A stretch of DNA of 64,000 nt from positions 62,001-126,000 of the forward strand of contig DXDG01000019.1 in NCBI GenBank assembly GCA_019115605.1, read 5' to 3'. This DNA is from Candidatus Alistipes faecigallinarum. GTDB taxonomy: Bacteria; Bacteroidota; Bacteroidia; Bacteroidales; Rikenellaceae. The notes under the pieces were generated by a model. That model was not told the origin of the DNA, made no database searches, and saw only the letters and a program-made list of their open reading frames with translations. This document shows, in pieces, positions 6,619-53,574 of this stretch (the stretch's first letter is position 1; every line of letters starts with the position of its first letter). Both the position numbers and the translations under genes were made by a program.

Positions 6619-6628
6619 GTCGGGGTTG

Positions 6629-13170: not shown

Positions 13171-13198
13171 AGGATCTGTTAGTTGGTTTGTATGTTTT

Positions 13199-16118: not shown

Positions 16119-16882
16119 ACCCTATGCCTATGAGAGTATTGATCGTCGAGGACGAGATCATGGCCCGGCAGAGCCTGGCCCGGATCCTGCGGCAGGAGTT
16201 CTCCGACCTGCGGATCGTCGGCACGGCCGGCTCGGTCCGGGAGACCGTCGACTGGCTGCGCGCCGGGGAAAACACGGCCGACGTGATCTTCATGGATGTC
16301 GAGTTGTCGGACGGCAACTGTTTCGAGATCTTCCGCCAGGTCGAGATTGCGGCCCATGTCATCATGACCACGGCCTACGACAGCTATGCCGTGCGGGCCT
16401 TCGAGGTGAACAGCATCGACTACCTGCTCAAGCCGATCGATCCGGCGGCGCTGCGGCGGGCCGTGGAGCGCTGCCGTACGAGCCGCGAGCACCTCGATGC
16501 GAGCCGGCTGCTCGATGCCATCGGCCGCACGCGCGAATACAAGCAGCGCTACATCGTGCGCTTCAACGACCGGATCGTGCCGGTGCGGACCTCCGACATC
16601 GCCTACTTCTACTCCGAGGAGAAGAACACCTGGCTGGTTACGGCGGACAACAGCCGCTATGTGATGGACCTCTCGCTGGATATCCTCTCCGAGGAGCTCG
16701 ACGCGCGGAGCTTCTTCCGCATCTCGCGCAACTGCATCGTCTCGATGGGGGCCATTACGAGCGTGGTGAAGCACCTGGGCAACCGCCTGAAGATCCAGGC
16801 CCGGCCGCAGCCCGGTTTCGAGATGATTGTGAGCCGGTCGCGGGTCGAGGATTTCCTCCGCTGGCTCGAGGGCGACTCCTGA
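16115..16882 (+). CDS. LytTR-type response regulator
   Basis: Receiver VLIVEDEIMARQ..FMDVELSDGN..TTAYDSYAVRAFEVNSIDYLLKPI plus LytTR domain; ATGA overlap with the kinase. Confidence 0.92.
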   Translation: MNPMPMRVLIVEDEIMARQSLARILRQEFSDLRIVGTAGSVRETVDWLRAGENTADVIFMDVELSDGNCFEIFRQVEIAAHVIMTTAYDSYAVRAFEVNSIDYLLKPIDPAALRRAVERCRTSREHLDASRLLDAIGRTREYKQRYIVRFNDRIVPVRTSDIAYFYSEEKNTWLVTADNSRYVMDLSLDILSEELDARSFFRISRNCIVSMGAITSVVKHLGNRLKIQARPQPGFEMIVSRSRVEDFLRWLEGDS

Positions 16883-16907
16883 CGGTGTGAAGCGGCGGGA
16901 GCGAAAT

Positions 16908-16948
16908 GACGGCGGGGAGGCATTCCGAATGGAAGCCTCCCCGCCGTC
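16908..16948. terminator. Bidirectional terminator hairpin between convergent genes
   Basis: GACGGCGGGGAGGC-A-TTCC-GAAT-GGAA-GCCTCCCCGCCGTC: 18-bp stem with one bulged A. Confidence 0.8.
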
Positions 16949-16963
16949 GTCTTCTGTCGCGGG

Positions 16964-27192: not shown

Positions 27193-27253
27193 CGATATGA
27201 CACTCTTTTGAGACGATAGTATACACCTAGGGGCGAAAGAAAATCTATTTTTG
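27193..27253 (+). promoter_or_regulatory. Promoter/operator A (upstream of sulfatase)
   Basis: CGATATGACACTCTTTTGAGACGATAGTATACACC...TATTTTTG; 50/61 identical to 28712-28772 by hand count. Confidence 0.75.
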
Positions 27254-27319
27254 TTCAAAACGAAACGTCGTGTCGGAAAGAGCGACTCGGGTTTCGATAC
27301 CACCTGACCTGCTACGAAA

Positions 27320-28651
27320 ATGGATGACAGAACCCTGCTGACAGGAGTCGGGGCGCTGCTGGCACTCGGTGCTCCGGCTTCGGCGCAAAACATGCGCCCC
27401 AACGTGATCGTGATCTATACGGACGACCATGGTACGCTGGACATGAACTGTTACGGTGCCCGGGACCTCCGGACGCCTCACATGGATACGCTGGCGGCGC
27501 GGGGCGTACGTTTCACGCAATTCTATGCCGCCCCCGTGAGTTCGGCCTCCCGGGCGAGTCTGATGACCGGACAATTCACCGCCCGTGCGGGACTTACGGG
27601 GAATGCCGGGGACCGGGGCCTGCCGACGGACAAGGAGACGATTGCCGAGCGTCTGCGGGCAAACGGTTACCGGACAGCCTGTATCGGCAAGTGGCACCTG
27701 GGGTCGCTCAGGGAGTATGCTCCGAACAGTCGGGGATTCGATTATTTCTGGGGATTTCTGGGAGGCTGCATCGACAGCTATTCGCATTTCTACTATTGGG
27801 GAGGTCCGAACCGGCACGACCTCTGGTGCAACGATCGGGAGATCTATCGCGGCGGAACCTTTTTTGCCGAAGAGACGTTGCGCGAGGCCGAGCGGTTCAT
27901 TACAAACGGGGACGAACGCCCCTTCTTTCTCTATTGGGCCGTCAATATCCCTCATTATCCGCTTCAGCCGTCGGAGAAGTGGCTGGAGTATTATGCCGAT
28001 CTGCCCGAGCCGCGCCGTCAGTATGCGGCTTTTATCTCGACATTCGATGATTGTCTGGGCGGGTTGAGAGCCTTTCTTCGGGAGAATGGGCTGGAGGAGA
28101 ACACAATTGTCATACTGCAGTCGGATAACGGCCACAGCACCGAGGTGAGAACCTTCGGTGGAGGGGGTTATTGCGGCGACTATCGAGGCGGGAAGTTCTC
28201 CCTTTTCGAAGGGGGAATCCGGGTGCCGGCCCTCATCTCCTGGCCCGGACATCTTCCGCAGGGGGCCGTCCGGGACCAGATGGCCATGAATATTGACTGG
28301 TTTCCGACGATTCTCGAACTTTGCGGAATTGATGCCGCGGGGTGTGACGTGGATGGGAAGAGTCTCGTGGGGGTGCTCCTCGACGGTTCGGCCCCGGCAC
28401 CACATGAAACGCTGCATTTCGATTTCGAGCGCCAGTGGGCCGTACGTCACGGTGACTGGAAACTGCTTTTCAATGCCATCGATGTACGTCCCAATGACCG
28501 GAACGTGACCCTCGAAGGTCTCTTCCTGACCAACCTGAAGATGGATCCTTCGGAATCGCGGAATCTTCTCGAATCCTATCCGCAGCAGGCCGGCGAGTTG
28601 CTGGAGCTGCGTCTGCAGTATGTCGCCTCACTCTCCGGACCGAGAAAGTAA
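27320..28651 (+). CDS. Type I sulfatase, Ser-type active-site motif
   Basis: RPNVIVIYTDDHGTLDMNCYGARDLRTPHMDTLAARGVRFTQFYAAPVSSASRASLMTG (S-S-A-S-R), GYRTACIGKWHLG. Confidence 0.92.
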   Translation: MDDRTLLTGVGALLALGAPASAQNMRPNVIVIYTDDHGTLDMNCYGARDLRTPHMDTLAARGVRFTQFYAAPVSSASRASLMTGQFTARAGLTGNAGDRGLPTDKETIAERLRANGYRTACIGKWHLGSLREYAPNSRGFDYFWGFLGGCIDSYSHFYYWGGPNRHDLWCNDREIYRGGTFFAEETLREAERFITNGDERPFFLYWAVNIPHYPLQPSEKWLEYYADLPEPRRQYAAFISTFDDCLGGLRAFLRENGLEENTIVILQSDNGHSTEVRTFGGGGYCGDYRGGKFSLFEGGIRVPALISWPGHLPQGAVRDQMAMNIDWFPTILELCGIDAAGCDVDGKSLVGVLLDGSAPAPHETLHFDFERQWAVRHGDWKLLFNAIDVRPNDRNVTLEGLFLTNLKMDPSESRNLLESYPQQAGELLELRLQYVASLSGPRK

Positions 28652-28711
28652 TTCGTAAATCATGTGTCTGCAGGTTAGTGACATGCGTTCCGATGCCCGT
28701 GCGTGTTGAAT

Positions 28712-28772
28712 CGATATGATACTCTTTTGGGACGATAGTACACACCTCGGCACGGAAGAAAACGTACCTTTG
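28712..28772 (+). promoter_or_regulatory. Promoter/operator B (upstream of GH130)
   Basis: CGATATGATACTCTTTTGGGACGATAGTACACACC...TACCTTTG. Confidence 0.75.
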
Positions 28773-28792
28773 TTTACGAAAAACGAGACCCC

Positions 28793-29824
28793 ATGCGCTA
28801 TTCCGACAATCCGATTCTGACACCCCGCGACCTGCGGCCGAGCCGCGAAGGGATGAAAATCGAGTGCCTGCTCAATCCGGGCGCCTTCCGCTTTGACGGC
28901 CGCACGTGGCTGCTTGTCCGCGTGGCCGAGCGTCCCGAGCAGCACGACGGGGAGATCAGCTTCCCGATGCTCGACGCCGCGAACCGCATGACGATCATGC
29001 GCGTTCCGACCTCCTCGCCCGATCTGGACCTCTCGGACCCGCGGGTGATCACCTACCGGGGCGCCGATTACCTGACGACGATGTCGCACCTGCGGCTGGT
29101 GAGCAGCAGCGACGGCATCCACTTCCGCGAGGATCTGGCCTATGCGCCGCTCTTCGGCAGCGACGCCTACGAGGCCTACGGCGTGGAGGACTGCCGCGTA
29201 ACGCAGCTCGAAGGGGCCTACTGCCTGACCTATACGGCCGTCTCGGCCAACGGCGTGGCGGTGCGCATGCGCCGCACGACGGACTGGCACCGTTTCGAGG
29301 ATTACGGGCTGGTGCTGCCGCCCCACAACAAGGACTGCACGCTCTTCGATGCGAAGATCGGCGACCTATATTATATGCTGCACCGTCCGAGCAGCCCCGA
29401 GATCGGCGGCAACTACATCTGGATCGCCCAGAGTCCCGACCTGCGCCACTGGGGCAACCACCGCTGCGTGGCCCGCACGCGTCCGGGACGGTGGGACAGC
29501 GCCCGCATCGGCGCGGGGTGTGCGCCGATCCGCACCGACCGCGGCTGGCTGATGATCTACCACGGCGCCGACGAGGCGCACCGCTACTGCCTGGGTGCGA
29601 TGCTGCTCGATGCGGAGGACCCCTCGAAGGTGCTGGCGCGCAGCGACCGCCCGATCCTGGAGCCCGAGGCGCCCTACGAGCAGACGGGATTCTTCGGCAA
29701 CGTCGTCTTCTCGAACGGCCAGATCGTCGACGGCGACCGCATCGCGCTCTACTACGGCGCCTCGGACGAGGTGATCTGCCGCGCGGACTTCTCGGTGCGC
29801 GAGATCCTGCAAACCCTCGAATAA
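28793..29824 (+). CDS. GH130 family beta-mannoside phosphorylase-like protein
   Basis: NPGAFRFDGRTWLLVRVAER, YGVEDCRVTQLEGAYCLTYTA, GCAPIRTDRGWLMIYHGAD. Confidence 0.88.
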   Translation: MRYSDNPILTPRDLRPSREGMKIECLLNPGAFRFDGRTWLLVRVAERPEQHDGEISFPMLDAANRMTIMRVPTSSPDLDLSDPRVITYRGADYLTTMSHLRLVSSSDGIHFREDLAYAPLFGSDAYEAYGVEDCRVTQLEGAYCLTYTAVSANGVAVRMRRTTDWHRFEDYGLVLPPHNKDCTLFDAKIGDLYYMLHRPSSPEIGGNYIWIAQSPDLRHWGNHRCVARTRPGRWDSARIGAGCAPIRTDRGWLMIYHGADEAHRYCLGAMLLDAEDPSKVLARSDRPILEPEAPYEQTGFFGNVVFSNGQIVDGDRIALYYGASDEVICRADFSVREILQTLE

Positions 29825-29855
29825 CCCGAACCAAACGAAAAAACATAAAACCGAC

Positions 29856-31538
29856 TTGAAACCCATGAAGAACCTTTTGACACACTGTTTCTGTCCGCTG
29901 CTGTGCCTGGCAGCCCTCACCGGTTGCGCAAACCAGGGTGCCGCGGGCTGCGACAGCCGCTCGACGGCGCTCGACGTCGATCTGACGAACCGTCTCTACC
30001 CCAAGGTGCAGACCCCGACCGAATCGCTCGTGGTGGTGAACCTCGCGAAGGACGACATCGAGGGCCAGGTGGCCGCCATCGGCCTGCAGGGCATCATCAA
30101 CCGCGACAGCCGCGAGAAGGTCTATGTGATGAACAGCCGCTGCAAGGACAACCACGGCGGCTGGAAGATCGGCCCCACGGCGCAGGCGCAGATGGGGCAG
30201 TTCTGGCTCGACCGGGTCCTCACCGACATCCCGCAGCAGGTGCTGCCGCTCGATACCACGAAGCGCAATCCCGCCTTCCGGGCCCTTGTCGAGCGGTACC
30301 GCGACCGCATCAAGGGGGTGGTGATCTACGATCCCGAACTGGTCGAGGCGACGATCGAGGCGGCGACGACGATCGCCGCGCAGACCGACGCACTGATCCT
30401 CTCGCCGTCGCTCTACGAGGAGGTGAAATCCTGCGGATTCCCCGTTGTCGAGGATCTGCGGGGCCGTTTCCGCAGCAACATCGAGTGTCTGGACTGGCTC
30501 ATGGAGCACTACTTCGAGGGGGCCTGCCACGACGTGGCCTTCACCTGGTCGCACATGACCCTCGACTTTGCCGAGAGCTGGGGCGCCGCCAACAAGGACT
30601 ATGTGGTGGCCAACCGGCTGTTCACCTACTTCCTCGACATCCGGATTCCCGAGGAGTGCCACTACTACGAAAATATCGTGAAGCGCTATCCCGCCGGCAC
30701 GCAGATCATGGGCTGGACCGACGAGCTGAAGGCCGACAAGCTCTTTGCCGACTACGGTTATGTGATGATCCCCTTCATCTCGGTGGAGAACATGACCGTC
30801 ATGTCGTCGTTCCCCTCCGTGCAGGGCACGCCCATCGAGCCGCGCGCCTATGAGGCCGACCCGAACACGACCTATGTGGCGATGCTCGTGGCCGACGGCG
30901 ACAACCTGCTCCACACGATGATCTACGAACCCTACACGATCGAGGAGTCGGAGCACTTCGGCGAGATTCCCCTGACGTGGGTCATCAACCCGGGCATCGT
31001 CGATCTGGCGCCGCGCGTCTTCACCTGGTACGACCGCGTGCTCAAGGGAGCCGGGCAGGAGATGGCCGCCATGATGGGCGACGGATCGCCCAATACGGAC
31101 CGTTACAGCGGCTTCTCGTTCTACTGCGCCCTGACGCGCCACTACCTCGACCGGGCGGGCATCCTCACGATGAAGCAGATGATCGACGGCGAGTCGGTCG
31201 CCTGGAACGTGCAGCCCTACTGCATCGAGGGCGGCTATGCCGGCACGGACTGGCGCGGCATCGAGCCGCACGAGTACCACATGGACCACGGGACGTTCCA
31301 CATCGGCACGACCAACTCGCGGCCCGAGTACCTCGACCGGGCGCTGGCCCGCACGCCCGAGGGCGAGCCCTACTTCCTCTCGGTGATGATCGGCACGGCC
31401 AGCGAGGATGCCCCGACCTACGCCCTGGAGGTGAAGCGCTACCTCGAATCGCGCAACGACGGCCGCCGCTACGTCTTCGTGCGCACGGCCGACCTGGCCG
31501 CGACCTATCGTGCCTGGAAGGGCCTTCCCGTGATGTAG
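29856..31538 (+). CDS. Secreted lipoprotein resembling GxGYxYP-family putative glycoside hydrolases
   Basis: Lipobox LTGC; EGQVAAIGLQGIINRDSREKVYVM; LTWVINPGIVDLAPRVFTWY; GDGSPNTDRYSGFSFYC. Family assignment is from memory. Confidence 0.55.
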   Translation: MKPMKNLLTHCFCPLLCLAALTGCANQGAAGCDSRSTALDVDLTNRLYPKVQTPTESLVVVNLAKDDIEGQVAAIGLQGIINRDSREKVYVMNSRCKDNHGGWKIGPTAQAQMGQFWLDRVLTDIPQQVLPLDTTKRNPAFRALVERYRDRIKGVVIYDPELVEATIEAATTIAAQTDALILSPSLYEEVKSCGFPVVEDLRGRFRSNIECLDWLMEHYFEGACHDVAFTWSHMTLDFAESWGAANKDYVVANRLFTYFLDIRIPEECHYYENIVKRYPAGTQIMGWTDELKADKLFADYGYVMIPFISVENMTVMSSFPSVQGTPIEPRAYEADPNTTYVAMLVADGDNLLHTMIYEPYTIEESEHFGEIPLTWVINPGIVDLAPRVFTWYDRVLKGAGQEMAAMMGDGSPNTDRYSGFSFYCALTRHYLDRAGILTMKQMIDGESVAWNVQPYCIEGGYAGTDWRGIEPHEYHMDHGTFHIGTTNSRPEYLDRALARTPEGEPYFLSVMIGTASEDAPTYALEVKRYLESRNDGRRYVFVRTADLAATYRAWKGLPVM

Positions 31539-31570
31539 CCCCGATCCCGGACCATACGAAAAAAGCTCTT

Positions 31571-31597
31571 CGGAACACACCCTCAGGGCGTGTTCCG
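31571..31597 (+). promoter_or_regulatory. Stem-loop upstream of susC-like gene
   Basis: CGGAACAC-A-CCC-TCA-GGG-C-GTGTTCCG. Confidence 0.45.
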
Positions 31598-31664
31598 CGG
31601 GGGCTGCTCACCGTCTGAAATTTCCGAAAAACAACCAACCAAACTTTAACAATCAAAAAACGCT

Positions 31665-34600
31665 ATGAAAAGGAGCTTGCTCAAAATGGCTTTTGCGGCA
31701 ATGATCGCGCTGCTCTGCGTCCCGTTCGCGGGGAGTCGCGCCGTTGCGCAGACCCGCAGCGTTGCGGGAACCGTCGTCGACGCGTCGGGTAATCCGGTTG
31801 TCGGCGCCGCCGTGGTCATCGAGGGAACCACGAAGGGAACCTCGACCGGTCTGGACGGTTCGTTCACGCTCGAAGGGGTGAAGGACGATACGCACCTGAC
31901 CGTGTCGTACATCGGTTACAAGACCCTCACAACCCCCTCGCTCGGTTCGCAGACCTCGTTGACGATCACCCTCGAGGAGGATACGCAGATGCTGGACGAC
32001 GTCGTGGTGATCGGCTACGGCGTGCAGCGCAAGAGCGACGTCACGGGGTCGATCACCTCGATCAAGGAGGATGCCCTGATCAACCGTTCGGTGGAGAACG
32101 TCCAGCAGGCCCTGCAGGGCAAGGCGGCTGGCGTATCGGTCTTCTCGGCTTCGGCAGCCCCGAACTCCTCGCCGTCGATCCGTATCCGCGGCTTCTCGTC
32201 GAACAGCGCCGGAGCCACCGACCCGCTCTACATCGTCGACGGTCTGAAGGTGAGCAACATCGGTTACCTGGATCCGTCGTCCGTAGAGTCGATGGAGATC
32301 CTCAAGGACGGCGCCTCGGCCGCCATCTACGGTGCCGAAGCCGGCAACGGCGTGGTGCTCATCACCACGAAGAAGGGCCGCAAGGGCGAGGCCCGCGCCT
32401 TCTACGACTTCACCTACGGCATCACCTCGCTGGCGCGCAAGGCCGACCTGATGAATGCCGAGCAGTATGTGGCCTATCAGTCGGCCGCCGGCAACAGCCA
32501 GCTCATGGAGCCCTGGGACGGTGTAACGGACACCGACTGGTTCGACGCCCTCTACGGTGACGGCGGATCGTTCCAGCGCCACACGGCGGGCTTCGAGTCG
32601 GCCAACGACAACGGCTCGGTCTACGCCTCGCTGTCGTACATGAACAACGACGGCATGTACTACGGCGACAAGGACTGGCTCAAGCGCATCACCTTCCAGC
32701 TCAACGGCGACTACAAGATCAAGGAGTGGCTCACCTTCACGACCAACAATACGGTCGAGAGCTCGCGGTGGCAGAGCCCCGGCGACGGCATCAACAAGGA
32801 TTTCAACAGTTCGCCCTATCTCTACGACCCGCTGCTCAAGCCCTTCTACGACAAGGACAACCTGCCGACCTACATGCAGGAGCTCATTGCCACGCAGGGC
32901 GATGACATGATGATGAAGAACGAGGAGGGCGACTACGCCGGCGTTCCCTTCACGGCCAAGGACAAGACGAGCCCCATGACGTGGTACTACAGCGGCGAGG
33001 GGCACCACAAGAGCTTCGCCCTGCGCGGCGCCTCTTCGGTAATCCTCTCGCCCTTCAAGGGCTTTACCTTCACCTCGCGCGTAGGCTACCGCCTCGAATC
33101 GTCGAACTACGACTACTACGGCGTGCCCTTCTACGAGGCCGTCTCGTCGCGCACGACGCCCTACATCGAGGGCCGCACCGACATGACGCGCTTCTACCAG
33201 TGGGAGAACTTCGCCAACTACAACCGCACCTTCGGCAAGCACGCCGTCGTGGCGATGATCGGTATGTCGTGGCAGTACAACTGGTACAACTTTACCTCGG
33301 CCAACGCCAACGGCCTGACCAATACGGCCGACAACTTCCACTACCTGAACTTCGCCGCGGCCGATGCCGTGAAGGGTGTCGGCGGCGAGGTCGGCGAGAC
33401 GGCCAGCCTGAGCTACTTCGGACGTGTGGGCTACACCTACGACGACCGTTACAGCGTGATGTTCAACTTCCGCGCCGACGCCTACGACCTCTCGAAGCTC
33501 TCGCGCGAGTCCCGCTGGGGCTACTTCCCCTCGGTTTCGGCCGGATGGACCGTCTCGAACGAGCCGTTCCTGCGCGAGGTGGATCCCCGGAGCCTCTCGT
33601 TCCTCAAGGTCCGCGCCTCGTACGGTGTGAACGGCAACGTCAACGTGCTGGGCGGCTACCGCTACCGTTCGTCGATGAACGTTACGGACTACTACCCGAT
33701 GGGCGGGCAGCTGCTCCCGACCATCACCCCTTCGGACGTGCTGGCCAACCCCTCGCTCGAGTGGGAGGAGTCCAAGCAGGTCGATGTGGGTGTCGATGCC
33801 CGCTTCCTGAACAACCGCCTCTCGTTCACGATGGACTACTTCAACAAGAACACTACGGGCCAGCTCGTGACGATGACCTCCCCGATCTCGACGGGAACGA
33901 CCTCGGTAACGCGTAACGTGGGTCTGGTGAACAACCACGGCTTCGAATTCGAACTCGGCTGGCAAGATCAGGTCGGCGAGTTCTCCTACAGCGTCAATGC
34001 CAACCTCTCGACGCTCAAGACGCGCGTCAAGGAGCTGGAGGGCGACCGCATCTGGAGCGGCGACATGGTGGTCTTCGACGTCGACAAGCCCGTATGGAGC
34101 TACTACGGCTGGAAATACCTGGGTGTGAATTCCGAGGACGGCAGCGCCATCTACTACGACAAGGACCGCAACGGCACGATCGACGACCAGGACAAGGTCT
34201 ACCTCGGCACGCCGATTCCCGACTTCACCTACGGCATCACGGTGAACCTCGCCTGGAAGGGCTTCGACTTCACGCTCTTCGGCAGCGGCTCGCACGGCAA
34301 CAAGCTGCTCTACTATGTGGGCACCACGCCGCAGGCCAACCGTCCCGCCGAGCTGTGGACCAAGTCGTGGGACGTTCTGGGCGCCGGTGCGAAGTATCCG
34401 CATCCCGACCCGAACGGCGACACGCACTTCTCGAAGTCGGACATGTACCTCAAGAGCGGTTCGTACTTCAAGATCAAGCAGCTGCAGCTGGGCTACACGC
34501 TGCCCGCGTCGCTGACGAAGAAGTTCGCCGTGTCGCGTCTGCGCGTCTATGTCTCGCTCGACAACTTCTTCTGCTTCTCGCCCTACTGGGGCATGGATCC

Positions 34601-34694
34601 CGAGGCGGTGAACGCCACCTCGGCCATGGGTGCCGACTACGGCAACTACCCGACGCCGAAGACGCTGACCTTCGGAGCCAACCTTTCGTTCTAA
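31665..34694 (+). CDS. SusC/RagA family TonB-linked outer-membrane protein
   Basis: VAGTVVDASGNPVVGAAVVIEGTTKGTSTGLDGSF, LDDVVVIGYGVQRKSDVTGS, YGAEAGNGVVLITTKKG. Confidence 0.95.
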   Translation: MKRSLLKMAFAAMIALLCVPFAGSRAVAQTRSVAGTVVDASGNPVVGAAVVIEGTTKGTSTGLDGSFTLEGVKDDTHLTVSYIGYKTLTTPSLGSQTSLTITLEEDTQMLDDVVVIGYGVQRKSDVTGSITSIKEDALINRSVENVQQALQGKAAGVSVFSASAAPNSSPSIRIRGFSSNSAGATDPLYIVDGLKVSNIGYLDPSSVESMEILKDGASAAIYGAEAGNGVVLITTKKGRKGEARAFYDFTYGITSLARKADLMNAEQYVAYQSAAGNSQLMEPWDGVTDTDWFDALYGDGGSFQRHTAGFESANDNGSVYASLSYMNNDGMYYGDKDWLKRITFQLNGDYKIKEWLTFTTNNTVESSRWQSPGDGINKDFNSSPYLYDPLLKPFYDKDNLPTYMQELIATQGDDMMMKNEEGDYAGVPFTAKDKTSPMTWYYSGEGHHKSFALRGASSVILSPFKGFTFTSRVGYRLESSNYDYYGVPFYEAVSSRTTPYIEGRTDMTRFYQWENFANYNRTFGKHAVVAMIGMSWQYNWYNFTSANANGLTNTADNFHYLNFAAADAVKGVGGEVGETASLSYFGRVGYTYDDRYSVMFNFRADAYDLSKLSRESRWGYFPSVSAGWTVSNEPFLREVDPRSLSFLKVRASYGVNGNVNVLGGYRYRSSMNVTDYYPMGGQLLPTITPSDVLANPSLEWEESKQVDVGVDARFLNNRLSFTMDYFNKNTTGQLVTMTSPISTGTTSVTRNVGLVNNHGFEFELGWQDQVGEFSYSVNANLSTLKTRVKELEGDRIWSGDMVVFDVDKPVWSYYGWKYLGVNSEDGSAIYYDKDRNGTIDDQDKVYLGTPIPDFTYGITVNLAWKGFDFTLFGSGSHGNKLLYYVGTTPQANRPAELWTKSWDVLGAGAKYPHPDPNGDTHFSKSDMYLKSGSYFKIKQLQLGYTLPASLTKKFAVSRLRVYVSLDNFFCFSPYWGMDPEAVNATSAMGADYGNYPTPKTLTFGANLSF

Positions 34695-34715
34695 TCCAAT
34701 AACCTTACGACAACG

Positions 34716-36530
34716 ATGAAAAAGCATATCATAGCATTTGCGGGACTGCTTGCCGGAGCGCTGATGTCGGTCTCCTGCTCGCAGGACCTGCTCGATTTCG
34801 AGCAGCACGGCGTCATGGAGGTCGACAAGACCTACGCCGAGGCCGACGATCAGACGGCCCAGCAGCTCATAGCCAACGTGTACGTGCGTGTGAAGTACCT
34901 GATGATGGGCGACTGGGGCGTACACTACATCGCCACGACGACGGCCAAGACGGCCGACTGCTGGCCGGGCGGTTCGGGCCCGAACGACGGCGTGGACTAC
35001 CTGCGCATGGCCATGATGGTCGATGACCAGGAGAACTCCGCCTACAAGGAGATGTATTCGCGTCTGTACCAGATCATCTACAAGTGCAACATGATCGTCG
35101 ACAAGCTCAACGACGGATCGGACGAGCGCCGGCGGGTGATCGGCGAGGCGAAGGCGTGGCGTGCCTGGGCCATGGCGCGTCTGACGCAGCTGTGGGGCTC
35201 GGCGCCGCTGGTGGACCATGTGCTCGACGGCATCAACTACTCGTTCTACCCCGGCAACTCGGATCCCGAGAAGAACTGGGAGTGGATCATGCGGCAGTTC
35301 GACGAGGCGGCCGAGGTGCTCCCCTCGAAGAGCGGTCTGGGCGGTCAGCGCGCCATCGGCGGCCGCTGGACGGCCGAGGCCTGCTATGCCTACAAGGCGC
35401 AGGGCTACATGTGGCGCGGCGACTACGCCAATGCCAAGACCGAGCTGGCGAAGGTCATCAACTCGGGCAAGTACGAACTGTGGACCGGCACGGCGACAAT
35501 GGGTCCCTCGAGCTACGGACAGAACATGCAGCTCAACAAGTCGAAGAACGCCGCCACGTGGAAGGACGGCAGCGACGACTACGAATACCTGACCCTCTAC
35601 CGGGCCGAGGCGGACTTCTGCGACGAGTTCCTGCTGGAGATAGACATCGACGGCGACGCCACGACGATCGAGAATACGGAGCCCTACTGGTTCCGCGCCT
35701 ACATGAACTGGCGCTACGACGAGATCAACAAACCGGGCAACCTCACGCCGCAGGACGGCTGGGGCTTCATCACCCCGACGCGTTCGTTCGCCATGGCCTT
35801 CGCGCGCCACGACGGCAACAGCATCCGCCGGCGCGCCAACATCGCCACCTACAGCGAGGTGTACCACGACTTCCCCTATGAGAACGTCGACGTGCGCGGC
35901 GTGATGTCGTCGATGCTCTACGGCAACGAGGGTTACTTCCGCATGAAGTACTACGACTTCCTCGACGATGCCGAGCCGACGCGCTACGCCTCGGGCAACA
36001 CGAAGGGCAACATGACCAACTTCCCGCTGATGCGTTACGCCGACGTGCTGCTCATGTACGCCGAGGCGTGCTGCCTCTCGGGCGAGGGCACGGCCAACAT
36101 CTCGGGCCTCGAGGCGCTGAACAAGGTGCGCCGGCGCGCCGGGCTGACCGACGCCCCCGCACTCGACATGGACAACGACGAGTTCGGCATCAAGGCCGAG
36201 CGCCGTTTCGAGCTGTGGCTCGACGACTGCGACCGCTACGTCGATCTGATCCGCTGGGGCGACTACAAGGATTTCATCACCACGACCGACGAGTCGCTTT
36301 CCGACGCGGGCCACGGCGTAGGTCCCCACTGGGCCGTCGACTGCGCCTGGCTCGTGGGTCTGAAGGATCCCTCGGTGCGTACGGACGATCCGACGGACCT
36401 GAGCAACTACGAGGTGCGCTACGACCCGCAGTCCACGCGCGGAACGTGGAGCGACCGCCTCTACCTGTGGCCGTTCCCCTATGCCGAGCTGACGCAGAAC
36501 CCCAACCTGGTGCAGAACGCGGGCTGGTAG
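34716..36530 (+). CDS. RagB/SusD family outer-membrane lipoprotein
   Basis: Lipobox VSCS, NKVRRRAGLTD, ERRFELWLDDCDRYVDLIRWGDYKDF. Confidence 0.93.
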   Translation: MKKHIIAFAGLLAGALMSVSCSQDLLDFEQHGVMEVDKTYAEADDQTAQQLIANVYVRVKYLMMGDWGVHYIATTTAKTADCWPGGSGPNDGVDYLRMAMMVDDQENSAYKEMYSRLYQIIYKCNMIVDKLNDGSDERRRVIGEAKAWRAWAMARLTQLWGSAPLVDHVLDGINYSFYPGNSDPEKNWEWIMRQFDEAAEVLPSKSGLGGQRAIGGRWTAEACYAYKAQGYMWRGDYANAKTELAKVINSGKYELWTGTATMGPSSYGQNMQLNKSKNAATWKDGSDDYEYLTLYRAEADFCDEFLLEIDIDGDATTIENTEPYWFRAYMNWRYDEINKPGNLTPQDGWGFITPTRSFAMAFARHDGNSIRRRANIATYSEVYHDFPYENVDVRGVMSSMLYGNEGYFRMKYYDFLDDAEPTRYASGNTKGNMTNFPLMRYADVLLMYAEACCLSGEGTANISGLEALNKVRRRAGLTDAPALDMDNDEFGIKAERRFELWLDDCDRYVDLIRWGDYKDFITTTDESLSDAGHGVGPHWAVDCAWLVGLKDPSVRTDDPTDLSNYEVRYDPQSTRGTWSDRLYLWPFPYAELTQNPNLVQNAGW

Positions 36531-36542
36531 CGGACGGGGCTT

Positions 36543-36624
36543 CGCGCGGAACCTCCGCGCGGGGCGCCGCAACGGTTTCCGGCGACGGCCGCGGGGTGTT
36601 CCGGCACTTCGTGCGGCCGTCGCC
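36543..36624 (+). terminator. Two consecutive hairpins after SusD
   Basis: CGCGCGGA-ACC-TCCGCGCG (36543-36561) and GGCGACGGCCGC...GCGGCCGTCGCC (36581-36624); no clear U-tract. Confidence 0.45.
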
Positions 36625-36693
36625 GTGCTTTCGATCCGGAGGCTCCTGACCGGGCCTTCGGGTGCAACATACAACCTGAAAAGATACGACGCA

Positions 36694-37413
36694 ATGAAAA
36701 AATGGATCACAAGCTGCGTGCTCGGCCTGCTGCTGGCCGGCGCCGCGCAGGCACAGAACTATTCGGACCTGCTGTACCGTGACTGGGCGGGTCTTCGGGC
36801 CTATGCCCAGGTGAACCGGACGCTCACCGAGCGCCCCGAGGTGGTCTTCATGGGCAACTCGATCACCGAGGGGTGGTTCAACCAGCACCCCGACTTTTTC
36901 CGGAGGAACAACTTCGCCGGCCGCGGCATCGGCGGCCAGACCTCCTCGGAGATGCTCGTGCGTTTCCGTCAGGATGTCATCAACCTGCACCCCGAGGTGG
37001 TGGCGATCCTCTCGGGGACGAACGACATTGCGATGAACAACGGCTACATCGCGCTGGAGAACACCTTCCAGAACATCGTCTCGATGTGCGAACTGGCGCG
37101 TTTCAACAACATCAAGGTGCTGCTCTGCTCGGTAACGCCCGCCACGGGCTTCGGATGGCGTCCGCAGGTCGATCCGCGGCCGCTCATTCCGCAGCTCAAC
37201 AAGATGCTGCGCGAGTATGCCGAGGCGACCGACGGTGTGGAGTGGGTCGACTACTTCTCGGCGATGGCCGGTGCCGACAACGGCATGCGCGAGGGGCTTT
37301 CGCCCGAGGGGTGCCACCCCAACGGCGAGGGGTACAAGATCATGGAGCGGGTGCTGGTGAAGGCGCTGAAGCGGCTCACCGGCTCCGACCGCGACTATTT
37401 CGTCTATGAATAG
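36694..37413 (+). CDS. SGNH/GDSL-type esterase
   Basis: VVFMGNSITEGWFNQHPDFFRRNNFAGRGIGGQTS, SGTNDIAMNN, EGCHPNGEGYKIM; ATG at 36694. Confidence 0.9.
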   Translation: MKKWITSCVLGLLLAGAAQAQNYSDLLYRDWAGLRAYAQVNRTLTERPEVVFMGNSITEGWFNQHPDFFRRNNFAGRGIGGQTSSEMLVRFRQDVINLHPEVVAILSGTNDIAMNNGYIALENTFQNIVSMCELARFNNIKVLLCSVTPATGFGWRPQVDPRPLIPQLNKMLREYAEATDGVEWVDYFSAMAGADNGMREGLSPEGCHPNGEGYKIMERVLVKALKRLTGSDRDYFVYE

Positions 37414-37445
37414 GCCCCGGAAGCGTTCCGGAGTGCCGTGCTGAT

Positions 37446-37453
37446 TATCTTTG
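37446..37453 (+). promoter_or_regulatory. -7 box TATCTTTG upstream of the sialate O-acetylesterase-like gene
   Basis: gattatctttgcaacc, ~20 nt upstream of the ATG. Confidence 0.55.
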
Positions 37454-37473
37454 CAACCACAAAACTGCTGACA

Positions 37474-39456
37474 ATGACACACGCAAAACGACTTCTTTTT
37501 CTGTTGCTGGCGGGGCTGCTGCCCCTCCGGCTGCTGGCCGACGTGAAGCTCCCGGCCATCTTTACCGACAACATGGTGCTGCAGCGCGAAAGCGAGGTGA
37601 AGCTCTGGGGCACGGCGGCGCCCGAGCGCACCGTGCGGATCACCACCTCGTGGGACGGTGCCCGCCATGAGGTGCCCGCGGATGCCGCGGGACACTGGAC
37701 TGTAACGGTCCGGACCCCCGAGGCGGGCGGCCCCCATACGATCACCTTCACCGACGGACGCCATCCCGTCACGTTGAGCAACGTACTCATCGGCGAGGTG
37801 TGGATCTGCTCCGGACAGTCGAACATGGAGATGCGCGTGGGCGACCGCGTAACGGGCATGGAGCAGGAGCTCGCCGAGGCCGAAGGCTACCCGGAGATCC
37901 GCCTGCTGCACATCGACAACACGACGAGCCCCGCGCCGCTCGCCGAGGCGAAGGTGCGCGACGGCGGCTGGCAGGTCTGCTCGGCGGATCACGTCCGCGA
38001 CTTCTCGGCCACGGGCTACTTCTTCGGCAAGGAGCTGCACCGCGAACTCGGGGTTCCCGTGGGTCTGATCGAGACCTGCTGGGGCGGCACGCTGGCCGAG
38101 GCCTGGACCTCGGGTGATGCGCTCTGGGACATCCCGGCCTTCCGCGATCGCGTGGCCAAGGCGCGGACGCTGCCCGCCACGCCCGAGGAGCGCACGCGGA
38201 TTTTCCACGAGGATCTCGACCGCTGGCGCGACGAGATGGCGGCCGTCGATCCGGGTTACCGTGACGGCAAACCCCTTTGGGCCGCGAGCACGTTCGACGA
38301 CACGGCCTGGGGCGAGATCCAGGCACCGGGCTTCGTGCAGCACCAGGGTCTCGGCAGCTTCACCGGAGGTTTCCTGTGGATGCGCCGCACGGTGGAGATT
38401 CCCGCCGCGTGGGCCGGCAAGGAGCTGACGCTGGAGCTGGCGGTCATCGACGACAACGACTTCACCTATTTCGACGGCGTCGAGGTCGGGCACACCGAGG
38501 GGTGCATGGCCTTCCGCCGCTACACCGTGCCGGCCTCGCTCGTCCGCGCGGGCCGCGTGACGATCGCCGTGCGTGTCATGGATACGGGCGGTCTGGGCGG
38601 CATCTTCGGCGATCCGAAGAGCATGTCGCTCCGCACGGCCGACGGCGATGTGCTGCCGCTGGCCGGGACGTGGAAATACCACCTCGGACTGGGGCTGGGC
38701 GAGGCGCCCGAGCTGCCGGTCAATACCGCCACGGAGCCCAATTTCCCGTCGTTCCTCTACAATGCGATGATCCATCCGCTGGTGGGCTACGGCATCCGGG
38801 GTGCGATCTGGTACCAGGGCGAGGCCAACGTGGCGCGTGCCGCGCAGTACCGCGACCTGCTGCCGCTGATGATCCGCGACTGGCGCAGCCGCTGGGGATA
38901 TGACTTCCCCTTCTACATTGTACAGCTGGCCAACTACATGAAGGTGCAGGAGGGTCCCGAGGAGTCGGAGTGGGCCGAGCTGCGCGAGGCCCAGACGGCG
39001 ACGCTGCGTCTCGAAAACACGGGCATGGCCGTCATCATCGACATCGGCGAGGCGGACGACATCCACCCGAAGAACAAGCCCGAGGTGGGCCGGCGCCTGG
39101 CGCTGCAGGCCCTCGCGAAGAGCTACGGCCGGCCGGTTCTCTGCTCGGGTCCCGTGTATGCGGGCTGCACGCTTGGCGACGGAGAGATCCGCATCCGCTT
39201 CTCGCACACCGACGGCGGGCTGAAGACCGTGGACGGCGGCGTTGTGAAGGGCTTCTGCATCGCCGGAGGCGACCATCGCTTCCACATGGCCGAGGCGCGC
39301 ATCGAGGGCGACGAGGTCATTGTCCGCTCGCCGGAGGTGGCCTATCCCGTGGCCGTGCGCTACGCCTGGGCGAACAACCCGGTCTGCAACCTGACAAACG
39401 GCACGGGACTTCCGGCCGGCCCGTTCCGCACGGACGACTGGACGGACGGCAAATAG
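37474..39456 (+). CDS. Sialate O-acetylesterase-like protein (SASA family)
   Basis: KLPAIFTDNMVLQRESEVKLWGTA, WICSGQSNMEMRV, IWYQGEANV, DIHPKNKPEVGRRLA. Confidence 0.9.
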   Translation: MTHAKRLLFLLLAGLLPLRLLADVKLPAIFTDNMVLQRESEVKLWGTAAPERTVRITTSWDGARHEVPADAAGHWTVTVRTPEAGGPHTITFTDGRHPVTLSNVLIGEVWICSGQSNMEMRVGDRVTGMEQELAEAEGYPEIRLLHIDNTTSPAPLAEAKVRDGGWQVCSADHVRDFSATGYFFGKELHRELGVPVGLIETCWGGTLAEAWTSGDALWDIPAFRDRVAKARTLPATPEERTRIFHEDLDRWRDEMAAVDPGYRDGKPLWAASTFDDTAWGEIQAPGFVQHQGLGSFTGGFLWMRRTVEIPAAWAGKELTLELAVIDDNDFTYFDGVEVGHTEGCMAFRRYTVPASLVRAGRVTIAVRVMDTGGLGGIFGDPKSMSLRTADGDVLPLAGTWKYHLGLGLGEAPELPVNTATEPNFPSFLYNAMIHPLVGYGIRGAIWYQGEANVARAAQYRDLLPLMIRDWRSRWGYDFPFYIVQLANYMKVQEGPEESEWAELREAQTATLRLENTGMAVIIDIGEADDIHPKNKPEVGRRLALQALAKSYGRPVLCSGPVYAGCTLGDGEIRIRFSHTDGGLKTVDGGVVKGFCIAGGDHRFHMAEARIEGDEVIVRSPEVAYPVAVRYAWANNPVCNLTNGTGLPAGPFRTDDWTDGK

Positions 39457-39523
39457 CGGCCCTGCGGTTTCGCAATTGGGCCGAAAACCGCTATCTTTGT
39501 CGGACAACCGGCATTGGAAGAAG

Positions 39524-42500
39524 ATGAAACGGATCCTGTGGATTTGGTGTGTGTTGCTGCTGCTCGCGGCCCCTGCCGGGGCCGCGGTGCGGCGCAACGT
39601 GCTTTCGAACGACAGCGGGCTGTCGAACAGTTCGGTAACCTGCATCCACCAGGATTCGCTCGGCGTGCTCTGGCTCGGCACGTGGGACGGCCTGAACCGT
39701 TACGACGGCTCGGAGTTCCGCGTCTACAAGTTCCAGCCCGACAATCCGAATACGATCTCGAACAACGTCATCCGCCGCATCGTCGAGGAGTCGTACGGCA
39801 TCCTCTGGGTCGCCACCGACTACGGCATCAACCGCATCGACGTCCGCAACGACCGCATCGAACGCTTCTACCCGGGCTATGAGGCGAGCAGCCCCGTCGG
39901 GGAGCGCTCCTTTTCCGTGGCGGCGTCGCCCGACGGCGAGCTCTTCTGCTCGTCGCTGGGGTGGGGCATCGCCCGCTACGACGACAGCCGGGGGCAGTTT
40001 GCGGCCCTCAACGTGCCGCAGGTCAATACCTCGGCGGTGCGTATGCTCCGGGCTCCTGCTCCGGGACGGCTGCTGCTGCTCACCACATCGGGCGATCTGT
40101 TCGAGGTGCGCTGCGCCGTTGCGGCATCGGGAGAGCCCGAGGCGGTCGCGACGGCGCCGCTGCTTTCGGGGCAGCGGGTCGCGGCGCTCTTCGATACGCC
40201 GCAGCGGACCTACATCGCCACGGAGGAGTCCCTCCTCTGGGTCTACGACAACGCCTCGGGCAAGCTCTCGCTCTTCGTGCGCCTGCCGCTTCCGCCTGCC
40301 GCCAAGGAGCGGCTCTGCGCCGTTGCCGAAACCCCTTCGGGACGCCTCGTCTGCGCCTTTACGGGCTCCGACACCCGCCTCTTCGACCCCGCGACGGGGA
40401 CCTTTTCGCCGCTCCGGGAGCTTGCCGGCGTTCCGGTGCTCTCGCTGCTGGAGGGCTCGCAGGAGATTCTCTGGGCGGGCAGCGACGGTCAGGGGGTGTT
40501 GAGCCTCTACGAGGATGACCTGGAGTTCAACCGCACGGACAACCAGCAGCTCTTCGACGGGAAGAGCGCCCCGGTGCGGGCCTTTTACGAGGATGCGCGC
40601 GGCAACCTCTACATCGCCACGAAGGGCAACGGCATCCGCGTGCTGCGGCCGGACGGACATGCGGGCGGGAGTTACGACCGTTCGAACGGCCTGGGCAGCG
40701 CCTCGGTTTACGCCCTGGCCGCGGGCGGCCACGACGATCTGTTCATCGGCCACGACGGCGAGGGGCTCAACGTCCTGTCGCTCGCCACGGGGCGCCTCAC
40801 GACGCTCGATCCGCTGCCGGGGGGCCGCTTCGGTTCGGTCTACGCCATCCTGCGCGACACGGTGAACGACCGGCTGTGGCTCGGCACGAACGGATACGGA
40901 CTCGTCGGACTGCGGCTGTGCCGCGCGGCCGACGGGCGTTACGAAATTCTCGACCAGCGGATCTACGTCAACGACAAGGAGGATGCGGCGTCGTTGAGCA
41001 ACAACGGCGTCTTCGCGATCGCCCCGGCGGACAGCGGACGGCTGTGGCTCGGCACGCGCGGCGGAGGCCTGAACCGCTTCGACCCCGCGACGGGCCGTTT
41101 CGAGGTCCACACGACCGCCACGGACGCCCGTCCGATCAGCAGCAACGACATCCTTTCGCTCTATGTGTCCCGCGATTCGACACTCTGGATCGGCACCGGA
41201 TACGGACTCAACCGGCTGATCCGGGAGCGGGACGGATCGATCTCCTTCCGCCGGTACACCGAGAGGGAGGGGCTTCCCAACAACACCGTCCACGGCATTC
41301 TGGAGGACGATGCGGGCGATCTGTGGCTGAGCACGAACAAGGGATTGGCGCGGCTCGACCCCGCGACGGGCCAGGTGGTCAGCTACTACCGTTTCAAGGG
41401 GCTGCAGGGCAACGAATTCTCCGACGGCGCCTACTACCGCACCCCTTCGGGCGAGATGTTCTTCGGCGGGGTGGAGGGCTTCAACCGCTTCGATCCCGAC
41501 GACATCCATCTGCGCGACTATGCGCCCCGCGTGCTGCTGCAGGGCTTCACCGTGCGGCAGAATCCGCTGCCCGACTTCCACCCGGACCGGGAGATCGTCC
41601 TGGCGCACAACGAGAACTTCTTCACCGTGCGTTTCGCGGCCCTGGAGTACATCCGCAACGAGAGCTGCGAATATGCCTACATCCTGCGGGGCTTCAACGA
41701 CGACTGGGTCTATACGGGTACGGACAACACGGCGGTCTTCACCAACGTGCCGCCCGGAAACTACACGTTTTCGGTGCGGGCGACCAACGGCGACAAGGTT
41801 TGGGGCGACTGCGAGACGACGCTGCACATCCGCGTGCGGCCGCCGTGGTGGAACACGACGCTGGCCTATGTGGCCTACCTGCTGCTGCTCGCCGGAGCGG
41901 TCTATGCGGTCTACTTCATCGCCAACGAACGCATCGAGCAGCGGCGCAGCCTGCTCATCGAGTCGATGAACCGTGCGCAGCAGCGCGAAAGCTACGAGGC
42001 GAAGCTGCGTTTCTTCACCTCCATCGCCCACGAGTTCTGCACGCCGCTGACGCTCATCTACGGCTCCGGGGAGCAGCTGCTCGGAAGCTACAGCCTCGCT
42101 CCGGAGGTGGTGCGCCACGTGCGGATCATCCGCAACAACGCGGCGCGCATGCAGCGTCTGATCGGCGAGCTGATGGACTTCCGCCGCGCCGATACGGGCC
42201 ATTACAAGCCCCGTTATGCGGAGGTCGATGCCGCGGAGCTGCTTTCGTCGCTCGTCGACAACTTCAACGACGTGATCGAGCAGCGGCGCATCGACCTGCA
42301 TCTGTCGCTGCCCGCGGCCGGGGCCGTGATCGTGAGCGACCGCGATGCCCTGGAGAAGATCTTCAGCAACCTGGTCTCCAACGCCTGCAAATATACGCCC
42401 GGCGGCGGCTGGATCTCGCTGACGCTCGAAACCGGGGTGTCGGGCACGCGGCTGCGGATCGCCAACTCGGGCAAGGGCATCAAACCCGAGGATATCGGCA

Positions 42501-43582
42501 ACGTCTTCAACCGTTTCGAGATCCTCGACAACTTCGAACGTTCGGCCAGCGAGGGGCGCGTCATGCGCAACGGCATCGGGCTGGCGCTGGCCAAGAGCCT
42601 TGCGGAGGCGCTCGGCGGCACGCTCACGGTCATAAGCGAACCGGGAAAGAGCACGACCTTCACCCTCACGCTGCCCGTCGTCGAGCGGTCGCTGATTGCC
42701 GGAGAGCCGCCGACCCCGCCCTCCCCGCAGCCTGCGCACGCTTCGTACTCCCCGCAGCGGGAGGCCGAACCGCTCTCCGGTGCGGAGCAGACACTGCCGG
42801 TCCCCGGCCGCGAGACGGCTGAGGCGACGATCCTCATCGTCGATGACGAGCGACAGATGCGCGACCTGGTGGCCGAGATCCTCGGCACGTCGTACACGGT
42901 GCTCCAGGCGGCCGATGGTGAGGAGGCGATCGCGATTCTCAAGCGCCGCCGCCCGGATCTGATCTTGAGCGACGTGAACATGCCGCGCCTGGACGGTCTC
43001 GGACTGCTCCGCTACCTCAAGCAGAACGAGATCACGCGCTACATTCCCTTTGTCTTCCTGGCCTTCAAGACCGATGTCGAGCAGGAGATCCACGGTTACG
43101 AGCTGGGCGGCGACGGCTATATCGCCAAGCCGTTTCATCCCAAGCACCTGCAGGCCGTCGTGCAGCAGATCCTCACCAACCGCCGCTCGCTGCGCAGCTA
43201 CTACAACTCGGCGATTTCCACGGCCGACGTCTACGAGGGCAACACGATCGACGCCGACGACAAGAAGTTCATCGTGCAGCTCACGCGGATCATCGAGGAG
43301 AACCTCACGGACGAGAACCTCTCGCTCAACTTCCTTTGCGACAAGATGTGCGTGAGCCGCATGAGCCTCTACCGCAAGATCAAGGAGATCACGCAGACGA
43401 CGCCGAGCGAATACATCCGCAAGGTGAAGCTCCGCCACGCCACGCACCTGCTCCGCACGACGGGCATGACGATCCAGGAGGTGATGTTCTGCTCGGGCTT
43501 CAACAACAAGTCCTACTTCTACCGCGAATTTGCGAAGGAGTACCACATGTCGCCGCGCGAGATGCGCGAGCGGGGCGAATAG
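39524..43582 (+). CDS. Hybrid two-component system regulator (beta-propeller sensor, HK, receiver, AraC-type HTH)
   Basis: VLWLGTWDGLNRYDG repeats, Y_Y_Y-like domain, FFTSIAHEFCTPLTLIYG, ILIVDDERQMRDLV..SDVNMPRLDG, C-terminal AraC HTH. Confidence 0.95.
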   Translation: MKRILWIWCVLLLLAAPAGAAVRRNVLSNDSGLSNSSVTCIHQDSLGVLWLGTWDGLNRYDGSEFRVYKFQPDNPNTISNNVIRRIVEESYGILWVATDYGINRIDVRNDRIERFYPGYEASSPVGERSFSVAASPDGELFCSSLGWGIARYDDSRGQFAALNVPQVNTSAVRMLRAPAPGRLLLLTTSGDLFEVRCAVAASGEPEAVATAPLLSGQRVAALFDTPQRTYIATEESLLWVYDNASGKLSLFVRLPLPPAAKERLCAVAETPSGRLVCAFTGSDTRLFDPATGTFSPLRELAGVPVLSLLEGSQEILWAGSDGQGVLSLYEDDLEFNRTDNQQLFDGKSAPVRAFYEDARGNLYIATKGNGIRVLRPDGHAGGSYDRSNGLGSASVYALAAGGHDDLFIGHDGEGLNVLSLATGRLTTLDPLPGGRFGSVYAILRDTVNDRLWLGTNGYGLVGLRLCRAADGRYEILDQRIYVNDKEDAASLSNNGVFAIAPADSGRLWLGTRGGGLNRFDPATGRFEVHTTATDARPISSNDILSLYVSRDSTLWIGTGYGLNRLIRERDGSISFRRYTEREGLPNNTVHGILEDDAGDLWLSTNKGLARLDPATGQVVSYYRFKGLQGNEFSDGAYYRTPSGEMFFGGVEGFNRFDPDDIHLRDYAPRVLLQGFTVRQNPLPDFHPDREIVLAHNENFFTVRFAALEYIRNESCEYAYILRGFNDDWVYTGTDNTAVFTNVPPGNYTFSVRATNGDKVWGDCETTLHIRVRPPWWNTTLAYVAYLLLLAGAVYAVYFIANERIEQRRSLLIESMNRAQQRESYEAKLRFFTSIAHEFCTPLTLIYGSGEQLLGSYSLAPEVVRHVRIIRNNAARMQRLIGELMDFRRADTGHYKPRYAEVDAAELLSSLVDNFNDVIEQRRIDLHLSLPAAGAVIVSDRDALEKIFSNLVSNACKYTPGGGWISLTLETGVSGTRLRIANSGKGIKPEDIGNVFNRFEILDNFERSASEGRVMRNGIGLALAKSLAEALGGTLTVISEPGKSTTFTLTLPVVERSLIAGEPPTPPSPQPAHASYSPQREAEPLSGAEQTLPVPGRETAEATILIVDDERQMRDLVAEILGTSYTVLQAADGEEAIAILKRRRPDLILSDVNMPRLDGLGLLRYLKQNEITRYIPFVFLAFKTDVEQEIHGYELGGDGYIAKPFHPKHLQAVVQQILTNRRSLRSYYNSAISTADVYEGNTIDADDKKFIVQLTRIIEENLTDENLSLNFLCDKMCVSRMSLYRKIKEITQTTPSEYIRKVKLRHATHLLRTTGMTIQEVMFCSGFNNKSYFYREFAKEYHMSPREMRERGE

Positions 43583-43628
43583 CGCTTCGCGGCGCCGTTT
43601 GATCACGTTACCATACGAAACGGATACA

Positions 43629-43666
43629 ATAGTGTACTCCCGGCCGCCGGGGGTATGCTATCTTTG
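43629..43666 (+). promoter_or_regulatory. Promoter/operator C (upstream of MFS)
   Basis: ATAGTGTAC-N21-TATCTTTG; same spacing as elements A and B. Confidence 0.6.
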
Positions 43667-43689: not shown

Positions 43690-44973
43690 ATGAAAGAAGC
43701 CACCGCCGCCAGGCCGAAGCACGGAGTGCTCTACCGGGCCCTGTCGGAATTCAGACACTTCGGCACCTATCCGTTCAACATGCGGATTCTGCTCCTGACG
43801 AACATGCTCTACGCCTTCGTCCTTCCGGTCGTCGAGCTCTTCGTCGGCACCTACATCATGCGCAACAGCTCGGAGCTCGCCTACGTCGTGGGCTACCAGC
43901 TGGCCGTCTACACGGGCATCCCGATCACGTTCCTCGTCAACGGATTCCTCATGCGCCGCATCCGCATCGCGCACCTCTACTCGTTCGGCATGCTGTTGAG
44001 CGGCGTCTCGATGGCGGTGATGATGTCGCTCGAGACGCTCGAACTGGGCGGAATCATCCTCGCGGGCCTCATCATGGGCCTCTCGTATGGATTCTTCTGG
44101 GCCAACCGCGACTTCCTGGCCCTGGCCTCGACCGACGACGGCAACCGCAACTACTACTACGGGCTGGAGAGCTTCTTCAATACGGTGGCCAGCGTCGTCG
44201 TGCCGGGCATGATCGGCGCCTTCCTTGGCGCCACGGCCGACCACGGCTGGTTTGCGGGCAACATCAACTTCGCCTATAAGCTCGTTACGCTCTTCGTCTT
44301 CGTGCTGACGATCGTCGCCTCGACGGTCGTCATGCGGGGCCGCTTCGCCGAGCCGAAGCACGATCGCTTCCTCTTCCGGCGCTTCGACACCCTCTGGTGG
44401 CGGATGATGCGCCTCGCCGTGCTGAAGGGCATCGCCCAGGGCTATATCGTTACGGCCCCCTCGATGCTCGTGATGACGCTCGTGGGCAACGAGACGACGC
44501 TCGGCACGCTGCAGTCCATCGGCGCCATCGTCTCGGCCGTGCTGCTCTACCTGCTGGGGCGCTTCACCACCTCGCACCACCGCGTGGCGATCTTCTCCGC
44601 CGGTCTGCTGCTCTTCGCCCTCGGCGGGGCCTTCAATGCCGCGCTCTACTCGGCCGCGGGGGTGATTGTCTTCATGCTCTGCCTCGTGCTCGGTCGGCCG
44701 CTGATGGATCTGGGCTACTTCCCGCTCCAGCTGCGCGTGATCGACTGCGTGAGCCGCCGCGAACACCGCAACTCCTACGCCTACATCTTCATCCACGAAT
44801 TTGCGCTCTACCTGGGCCGTTTCTTCGGCTGCGGGCTCTTCATCGTCCTGACTCTTGCCGTTTCGGACACCTTCGCGATCCGCTATGCGCTGCTGATTAT
44901 CGGCGTCATCCAGCTGATCTCGATTCCGATTGCCCGCGGAATTACCCATACGCTCGATCAATCGGAGCGTTGA
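43690..44973 (+). CDS. MFS transporter
   Basis: 12-TM-like hydrophobic profile; LVVGYQLAVYTGIPITFLVNGFLMRRIRIAHLYSFGM; ATG at 43690 (MKEATAARPKHG) preferred. Confidence 0.85.
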   Translation: MKEATAARPKHGVLYRALSEFRHFGTYPFNMRILLLTNMLYAFVLPVVELFVGTYIMRNSSELAYVVGYQLAVYTGIPITFLVNGFLMRRIRIAHLYSFGMLLSGVSMAVMMSLETLELGGIILAGLIMGLSYGFFWANRDFLALASTDDGNRNYYYGLESFFNTVASVVVPGMIGAFLGATADHGWFAGNINFAYKLVTLFVFVLTIVASTVVMRGRFAEPKHDRFLFRRFDTLWWRMMRLAVLKGIAQGYIVTAPSMLVMTLVGNETTLGTLQSIGAIVSAVLLYLLGRFTTSHHRVAIFSAGLLLFALGGAFNAALYSAAGVIVFMLCLVLGRPLMDLGYFPLQLRVIDCVSRREHRNSYAYIFIHEFALYLGRFFGCGLFIVLTLAVSDTFAIRYALLIIGVIQLISIPIARGITHTLDQSER

Positions 44974-46640: not shown

Positions 46641-46667
46641 TTTTCTATCGGTTTTTTAGGTCTGTTG

Positions 46668-48836: not shown

Positions 48837-48846
48837 GGCGGTTGTC

Positions 48847-51171: not shown

Positions 51172-51210
51172 GTTGTTTGCCGGTTTCAAGGTTTTACGTT
51201 TCGGAACGGA

Positions 51211-53565: not shown

Positions 53566-53574
53566 GGGTTCGTT

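Follow-up and report, generated by a model that had tools for sequence, protein, structure and literature searches.

A 30-base direct repeat before three sugar-degradation units of an Alistipes locus is a probable HTCS operator

The window analysed here is a stretch of 64,000 nucleotides from Candidatus Alistipes faecigallinarum (contig DXDG01000019.1). On its plus strand it carries a sulfatase gene (Pfam Sulfatase; 27320..28651), followed by genes for a GH130 mannoside phosphorylase-type enzyme (28793..29824), a GxGYxYP protein (29856..31538), a SusC-like TonB-dependent transporter (31665..34694), a SusD-like protein (34716..36530) and an SGNH/GDSL hydrolase (36625..37413), the last of which probably closes the unit. 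Further along the same strand lie a hybrid two-component system (HTCS) gene (39524..43582), whose product comprises a Reg_prop sensor, Y_Y_Y, HisKA, HATPase and receiver domains and an AraC-type HTH, and an MFS transporter gene (43690..44973, with its ATG at 43690). This HTCS is the only one in the window and has the full domain set. The original prediction had named the sulfatase, the GH130-GxGYxYP-SusCD-SGNH unit and the MFS transporter as the genes behind a shared promoter motif, and this naming agrees with the annotation. A minus-strand block (45261-56283) encoding a GH38, three GH92s and a GDSL hydrolase comes next, and a gene for a DUF6377-domain protein (56379-58220) lies just upstream of it. 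Toward the other end of the window is a starch-utilisation-like locus (883-19585, minus strand) with genes for a SusG carrying CBM58, SusE, SusD, SusC, an MFS protein, an alpha-amylase and a GH77.

Each of the three units is preceded on the plus strand by a candidate operator composed of two half-sites separated by 12 nucleotides. Operator 1 (P1; 27195..27224), before the sulfatase gene, reads ATATGACAC-N12-ATAGTATAC, with its half-sites 21 bp apart. Operator 2 (P2; 28714..28743), before the GH130 unit, is ATATGATAC-N12-ATAGTACAC, and operator 3 (P3; 43608..43637), before the MFS gene, is TTACCATAC-N12-ATAGTGTAC. When the sequence was re-read, the second half-sites were found at 27216-27224, 28735-28743 and 43629-43637, just where the original prediction had located its motif. 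Its observation that the motif is followed after exactly 21 nt by a -7 box holds at all three sites, as does its placement of the elements ACACT, ATACT and ATACG 11 nt upstream of the respective motifs. The boxes themselves (TATTTTTG at 27246..27253, TACCTTTG at 28765..28772 and TATCTTTG at 43659..43666) are ordinary Bacteroidota primary-sigma -7 boxes of the form TAnnTTTG. Five such boxes are present on the plus strand between 26.9 and 45.5 kb, three with the operator and two without it. The latter both read TATCTTTG and are located before a SASA-type esterase gene (37446..37453) and before the HTCS gene (39492..39499).

Inspection of the sequence between ATAGTRYAC and the -7 box revealed no -33 TTG at P1, P2 or P3, as is expected of activator-dependent promoters. 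If the -7 box is taken to lie at about -10 to -3, then the second half-site would occupy approximately -40 to -32 and the first approximately -61 to -53. This would be the position of an activator that overlaps the -33 element. Based on this placement, on the missing -33 TTG and on the known role of HTCSs, we infer that the three promoters are activator-dependent. P1 and P2 are near copies of each other that share a block with the appearance of a duplication, and thus they do not count as two fully independent instances. The flanks of P3 are unrelated to those of P1 and P2, and sites of the MFS type have the half-sites in common with the others while lacking the TCTTTTGA spacer. The P3 spacer (43638-43658) contains a GC-rich inverted repeat (CCCGGCCGCCGGG), and the equivalent spacer in the related genome G115 holds a related inverted repeat with changed letters.

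The repeat structure of the operator was determined by aligning each site to itself at every lag. Over six sites of different context, the best self-match was obtained at a lag of 21 (36 versus a mean of 17.5 across lags), and over 17 sites the self-identity was again highest at lag 21 (5.5 of 9 positions versus 0.9-4.3 at other lags). The operator is therefore a direct repeat of ATAC-type half-sites with a period of 21 bp, which is exact in all window sites and in the tabulated relatives. The 17 sites yield the consensus nATACtctTTTGAnAnnATAGTATAC, followed by 21 nt and then TAnnTTTG. What had been described as an ACACT/ATACT/ATACG half-element corresponds to the 3′ portion of the first repeat, whereas ATAGTRYAC is the second.

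This architecture resembles that of operators already predicted for HTCSs. The sections of Ravcheev et al. 2013 (PMC3878776) drawn on here describe Bacteroides HTCS motifs as direct repeats with half-sites on average 21 bp apart, situated before operons of the HTCS-encoding locus and interpreted as sites for a dimer bound to one DNA face. The same sections place mannan-type enzymes in the regulons of the HTCS_Man group (BT2628/BT3302/BT3786), as is also the case here. However, those operators come from another organism, and the likeness recognised is one of repeat form and spacing; the distance to the -7 box is an addition to what these sections describe. SusR-type operators of Bacteroides are, according to the same source, also direct repeats before glycan operons, but with half-sites 67 or 77 bp apart rather than 21 bp, which places the window sites outside the SusR type. 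Response-regulator fragments of BT4124 and BT4663, which likewise consist of an HTCS receiver and AraC-type DNA-binding domain, gave gel shifts with the promoters bt4114 and bt4662 of their cognate susCD genes (PMC11253607), although these regulators and promoters are other than those considered here. A 2025 xylan paper that mentions "direct repeats" was set aside as a parallel, since its regulator is of the XylR type and not an HTCS. Given the direct repeat, its 21-bp period, the HTCS in the locus and the conservation before orthologous operons, the window sites can be classed as putative HTCS-type operators with predicted binding.

The motif is rare in its own genome (2,184,962 bases), where enrichment was gauged by pattern searches against reversed-pattern controls. 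The original prediction had proposed a whole-genome scan, to be read against random scatter of the motif. Searching for ATAGTRYAC-N21-TANNTTTG recovered exactly three perfect matches, precisely P1, P2 and P3. Allowing one mismatch added nothing and allowing two added a single match, compared with four matches at up to two mismatches for the reversed control. The longer pattern WTANNNYAC-N12-ATAGNNYAC-N21-TANNTTTG found the same three at zero mismatches, none at one or two and one at three. Even the operator part alone, AYACK-N11-ATAGTRYAC without the promoter element, matched at these three places only. Within the window, P1 to P3 score 31.5-43.3 bits versus 10.6 bits for the next best site, and no credible further operator was found there before the minus-strand GH38-GH92 operon or before the GH2 gene at 25213-27024.

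Comparison of orthologous promoters, another of the proposed checks, likewise favours a functional motif, because the sites are kept in the G115 and G178 loci and in the loci of HTCS relatives in other families. Besides the genome under study, G115 and G178 are the only genomes of the genus with an orthologue of the HTCS. Across 180 genomes of the genus, AYACK-N11-ATAGTRYAC matched three times in the genome under study, twice in G115 and three times in G178, all inside the orthologous locus. The remaining 177 genomes, which have no HTCS orthologue, together gave 14 scattered matches (a mean of 0.08 each, with none having more than one), a background similar to that of the reversed control. The association of at least two operators with an HTCS orthologue over the 180 genomes has a Fisher p of about 1e-6. 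P2 is conserved before GH130 and P3 before the MFS gene in both G115 and G178, and the operators of G178 precede GH130, the MFS gene and the GH38-GH92 operon. The gap to the -7 box is nearly fixed, being 22 nt before the MFS gene of G178. In G127, a member of the same genus whose HTCS has 38% identity, a variant site precedes a gene resembling another GH130 type, which is followed by SusC/D-like genes. Most other genus-wide matches to ATAGTRYAC-N21-TAnnTTTG (G011, G025, G040, G044, G074 and G166) were rejected because they lie in a repeated element, unrelated to the operator, that has an inverted repeat at its tail. This element carries ATAGTACACGAAGTACAGCCCGAGGGGTCTTACTTTTG or close variants with inverted flanks, is present in several copies in some genomes and was located at L058, L059, L061, L062, L064, L065, L068-L070 and L072-L074.

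The operator also adjoins relatives of the HTCS (33-41% identity) in further families of the order, where every site found lies 21 nt from its -7 box. In the stretches read, two operators were found in each of G399 and G286 and one in each of G431, G297, G524 and G619; the loci outside the family with a conserved operator thus include G286, and P2-type operators are present in G399, G431, G524 and G619. Most of these sites precede a GH130 orthologue (~60% identity), followed by MFS (~47%) and SusC/SusD genes. An order-wide scan of 393 genomes at up to three mismatches returned 13 matches in nine genomes versus one for the reversed control, and the site is present in six of the 12 genomes with a close HTCS relative versus three of 381 others (Fisher p 1.5e-8); the pattern was drawn partly from G399, G286, G431 and G297, and so these four do not provide independent support. 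Every match with at most two mismatches in the 393 genomes is beside such an HTCS. In G652, two divergent sites beside its HTCS were detected blind. The 39 kb searched in G631, which encodes the closest cross-family HTCS (47% identity), held no convincing site. There is perhaps an even chance that one HTCS clade, marked by an NKSYFYREF-type helix, kept a single operator code and a nearly fixed 21-nt reach across families while genes joined and left the regulon.

Conservation of the HTCS is stronger in its DNA-binding domain than over its full length. The whole protein is about 82-83% identical in G115 and about 65-66% in G178, versus 98% and 84%, respectively, for the DNA-binding domain. The second HTH helix, NKSYFYREF with close variants, is largely common to the HTCSs that have sites, and it differs in the other HTCS of the same genome and in several HTCSs that lack them. 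As a marker it is imperfect, since the HTCS of G129 carries the helix and has no recognised site. Only one further protein in the genome gave matches to the receiver as well as to the AraC-type domain (31% identity), and the search of the genome contigs for HTCSs found only distant ones (24-32% identity), which were not used further. The operator-less -7 box before the HTCS gene recurs in G115 (39244) and G178 (68509), and therefore the HTCS probably has its own promoter and is expressed independently of the operator. The receiver loop of this HTCS is TRYIP, in place of the [SC]HIP found in most Bacteroides HTCSs. Departures from [SC]HIP are also reported for the alpha-mannan HTCSs BT3302, BT3786 and BT2628 (PMC11253607), and DNA-binding may be restrained differently in such proteins.

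Other explanations for the sites can be weighed against this evidence. The original prediction named either the HTCS or the DUF6377-domain protein as regulator, and the data strongly favour the first of these candidates and do not support the second. A case could be made that the DUF6377 protein binds the sites and that the HTCS controls something else, given that this protein is large and regulator-like, has its gene inside the locus and recurs in G115 (82% identity). However, the 60 kb examined around the G178 locus, which carries three operators, yielded no gene for such a protein, and the closest match elsewhere in that genome is only 35% identical and on another contig. The sites thus do not need DUF6377, and their 21-bp direct repeat is of the HTCS form and tracks the HTCS both within the genus and across families, which makes this assignment very improbable. 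We are equally sceptical that a sigma factor, for example an alternative sigma, reads the motif directly as an extended part of the core promoter. The 21-nt gap to the -7 box, constant in nearly every site, would fit such an element, but the box is of the ordinary type, the conserved block reaches to about -61, past a -33 element, and is a direct repeat, and the motif is confined to loci with one HTCS clade instead of being scattered over genomes.

It might also be argued that the HTCS binds but mainly represses or fine-tunes, with another protein serving as the activator, because an operator lying across the -33 region might equally obstruct polymerase. On the other hand, promoters without a -33 TTG should be weak alone, and characterised HTCSs are activators of their own loci. 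For example, BT1754 is named as an activator (PMC11501099). A mainly repressive role is consequently quite unlikely. Least credible, to the point of being nearly negligible, is chance similarity or a recent functionless sequence duplication; the copied-looking block shared by P1 and P2 speaks for it, but the unrelated surroundings of P3 do not, and it is contradicted by retention of the motif in other families despite diverged surrounding DNA.

This analysis establishes that the sites exist, are unique in the genome, take the form of a direct repeat and are conserved together with the HTCS. We consider it very likely that the HTCS encoded at 39524-43582 has the three sites as its operators, through which it would activate the three units together; the binding, activation, start sites and inducer are predicted components of this model. 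The HTCS, probably expressed from a promoter of its own that lacks the operator (-7 box at 39492), would sense a periplasmic oligosaccharide and, in response, phosphorylate its receiver domain; the neighbouring enzymes make a mannoside the most likely ligand. In the dimer, the two AraC-type DNA-binding domains could then occupy the half-sites, which would face the same side of the DNA at a distance of 21 bp, or two helical turns. Because the downstream half-site takes the place of a -33 box, the bound HTCS would be expected to draw in Bacteroidota RNA polymerase at the -7 box lying 21 nt downstream, such that the sulfatase, the GH130-GxGYxYP-SusC-SusD-SGNH unit and the MFS importer are switched on together. 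The nearest match and closest solved relative of the GH130 enzyme is Uhgb_MS (528 bits), a mannoside synthase whose structure contains a 1,2-beta-mannose ligand. The three GH92s and the GH38 point to alpha-mannosides as substrate, and the sulfatase points to a sulfated part in it. The inducer is therefore likely to be a fragment of mannan or N-glycan.

The 30-base switch before three sugar-degradation units is almost certainly a clear but ordinary example of a known control type, in which it serves as the docking site of an HTCS. To our knowledge, few HTCS operators have been resolved to individual bases, and the Bacteroides operators of the 2013 study (PMC3878776) are, in the sections cited, predictions. 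Here, one HTCS, its operator, the promoter geometry and the targets are tied together across several families. The short consensus makes the proposal testable by a simple gel shift; it can also guide searches for the regulon in uncultured relatives and help to place genes in a probable mannoside pathway.

Membership of the regulon appears to vary among relatives. In the window, the sulfatase gene sits between the near-identical P1 and P2 (27183-28790). G115 has one GH130 operator, whose left flank is like that of P1 and whose right flank is like that of P2. No sulfatase was found in the G115 genome, an absence that is unproven because the assembly is incomplete (92%). In G178, the sulfatase gene directly follows the MFS gene and has no operator of its own. 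This looks like gene movement or loss through operator repeats: either the sulfatase gene brought a copy of the operator with it, or recombination between the two operators removed the gene from G115. The GH38-GH92 operon is inverted in the window and in G115 relative to G178, and no operator is recognisable before it in the window or in G115, although its counterpart in G178 has one. Given its location, the DUF6377 gene might control this minus-strand block.
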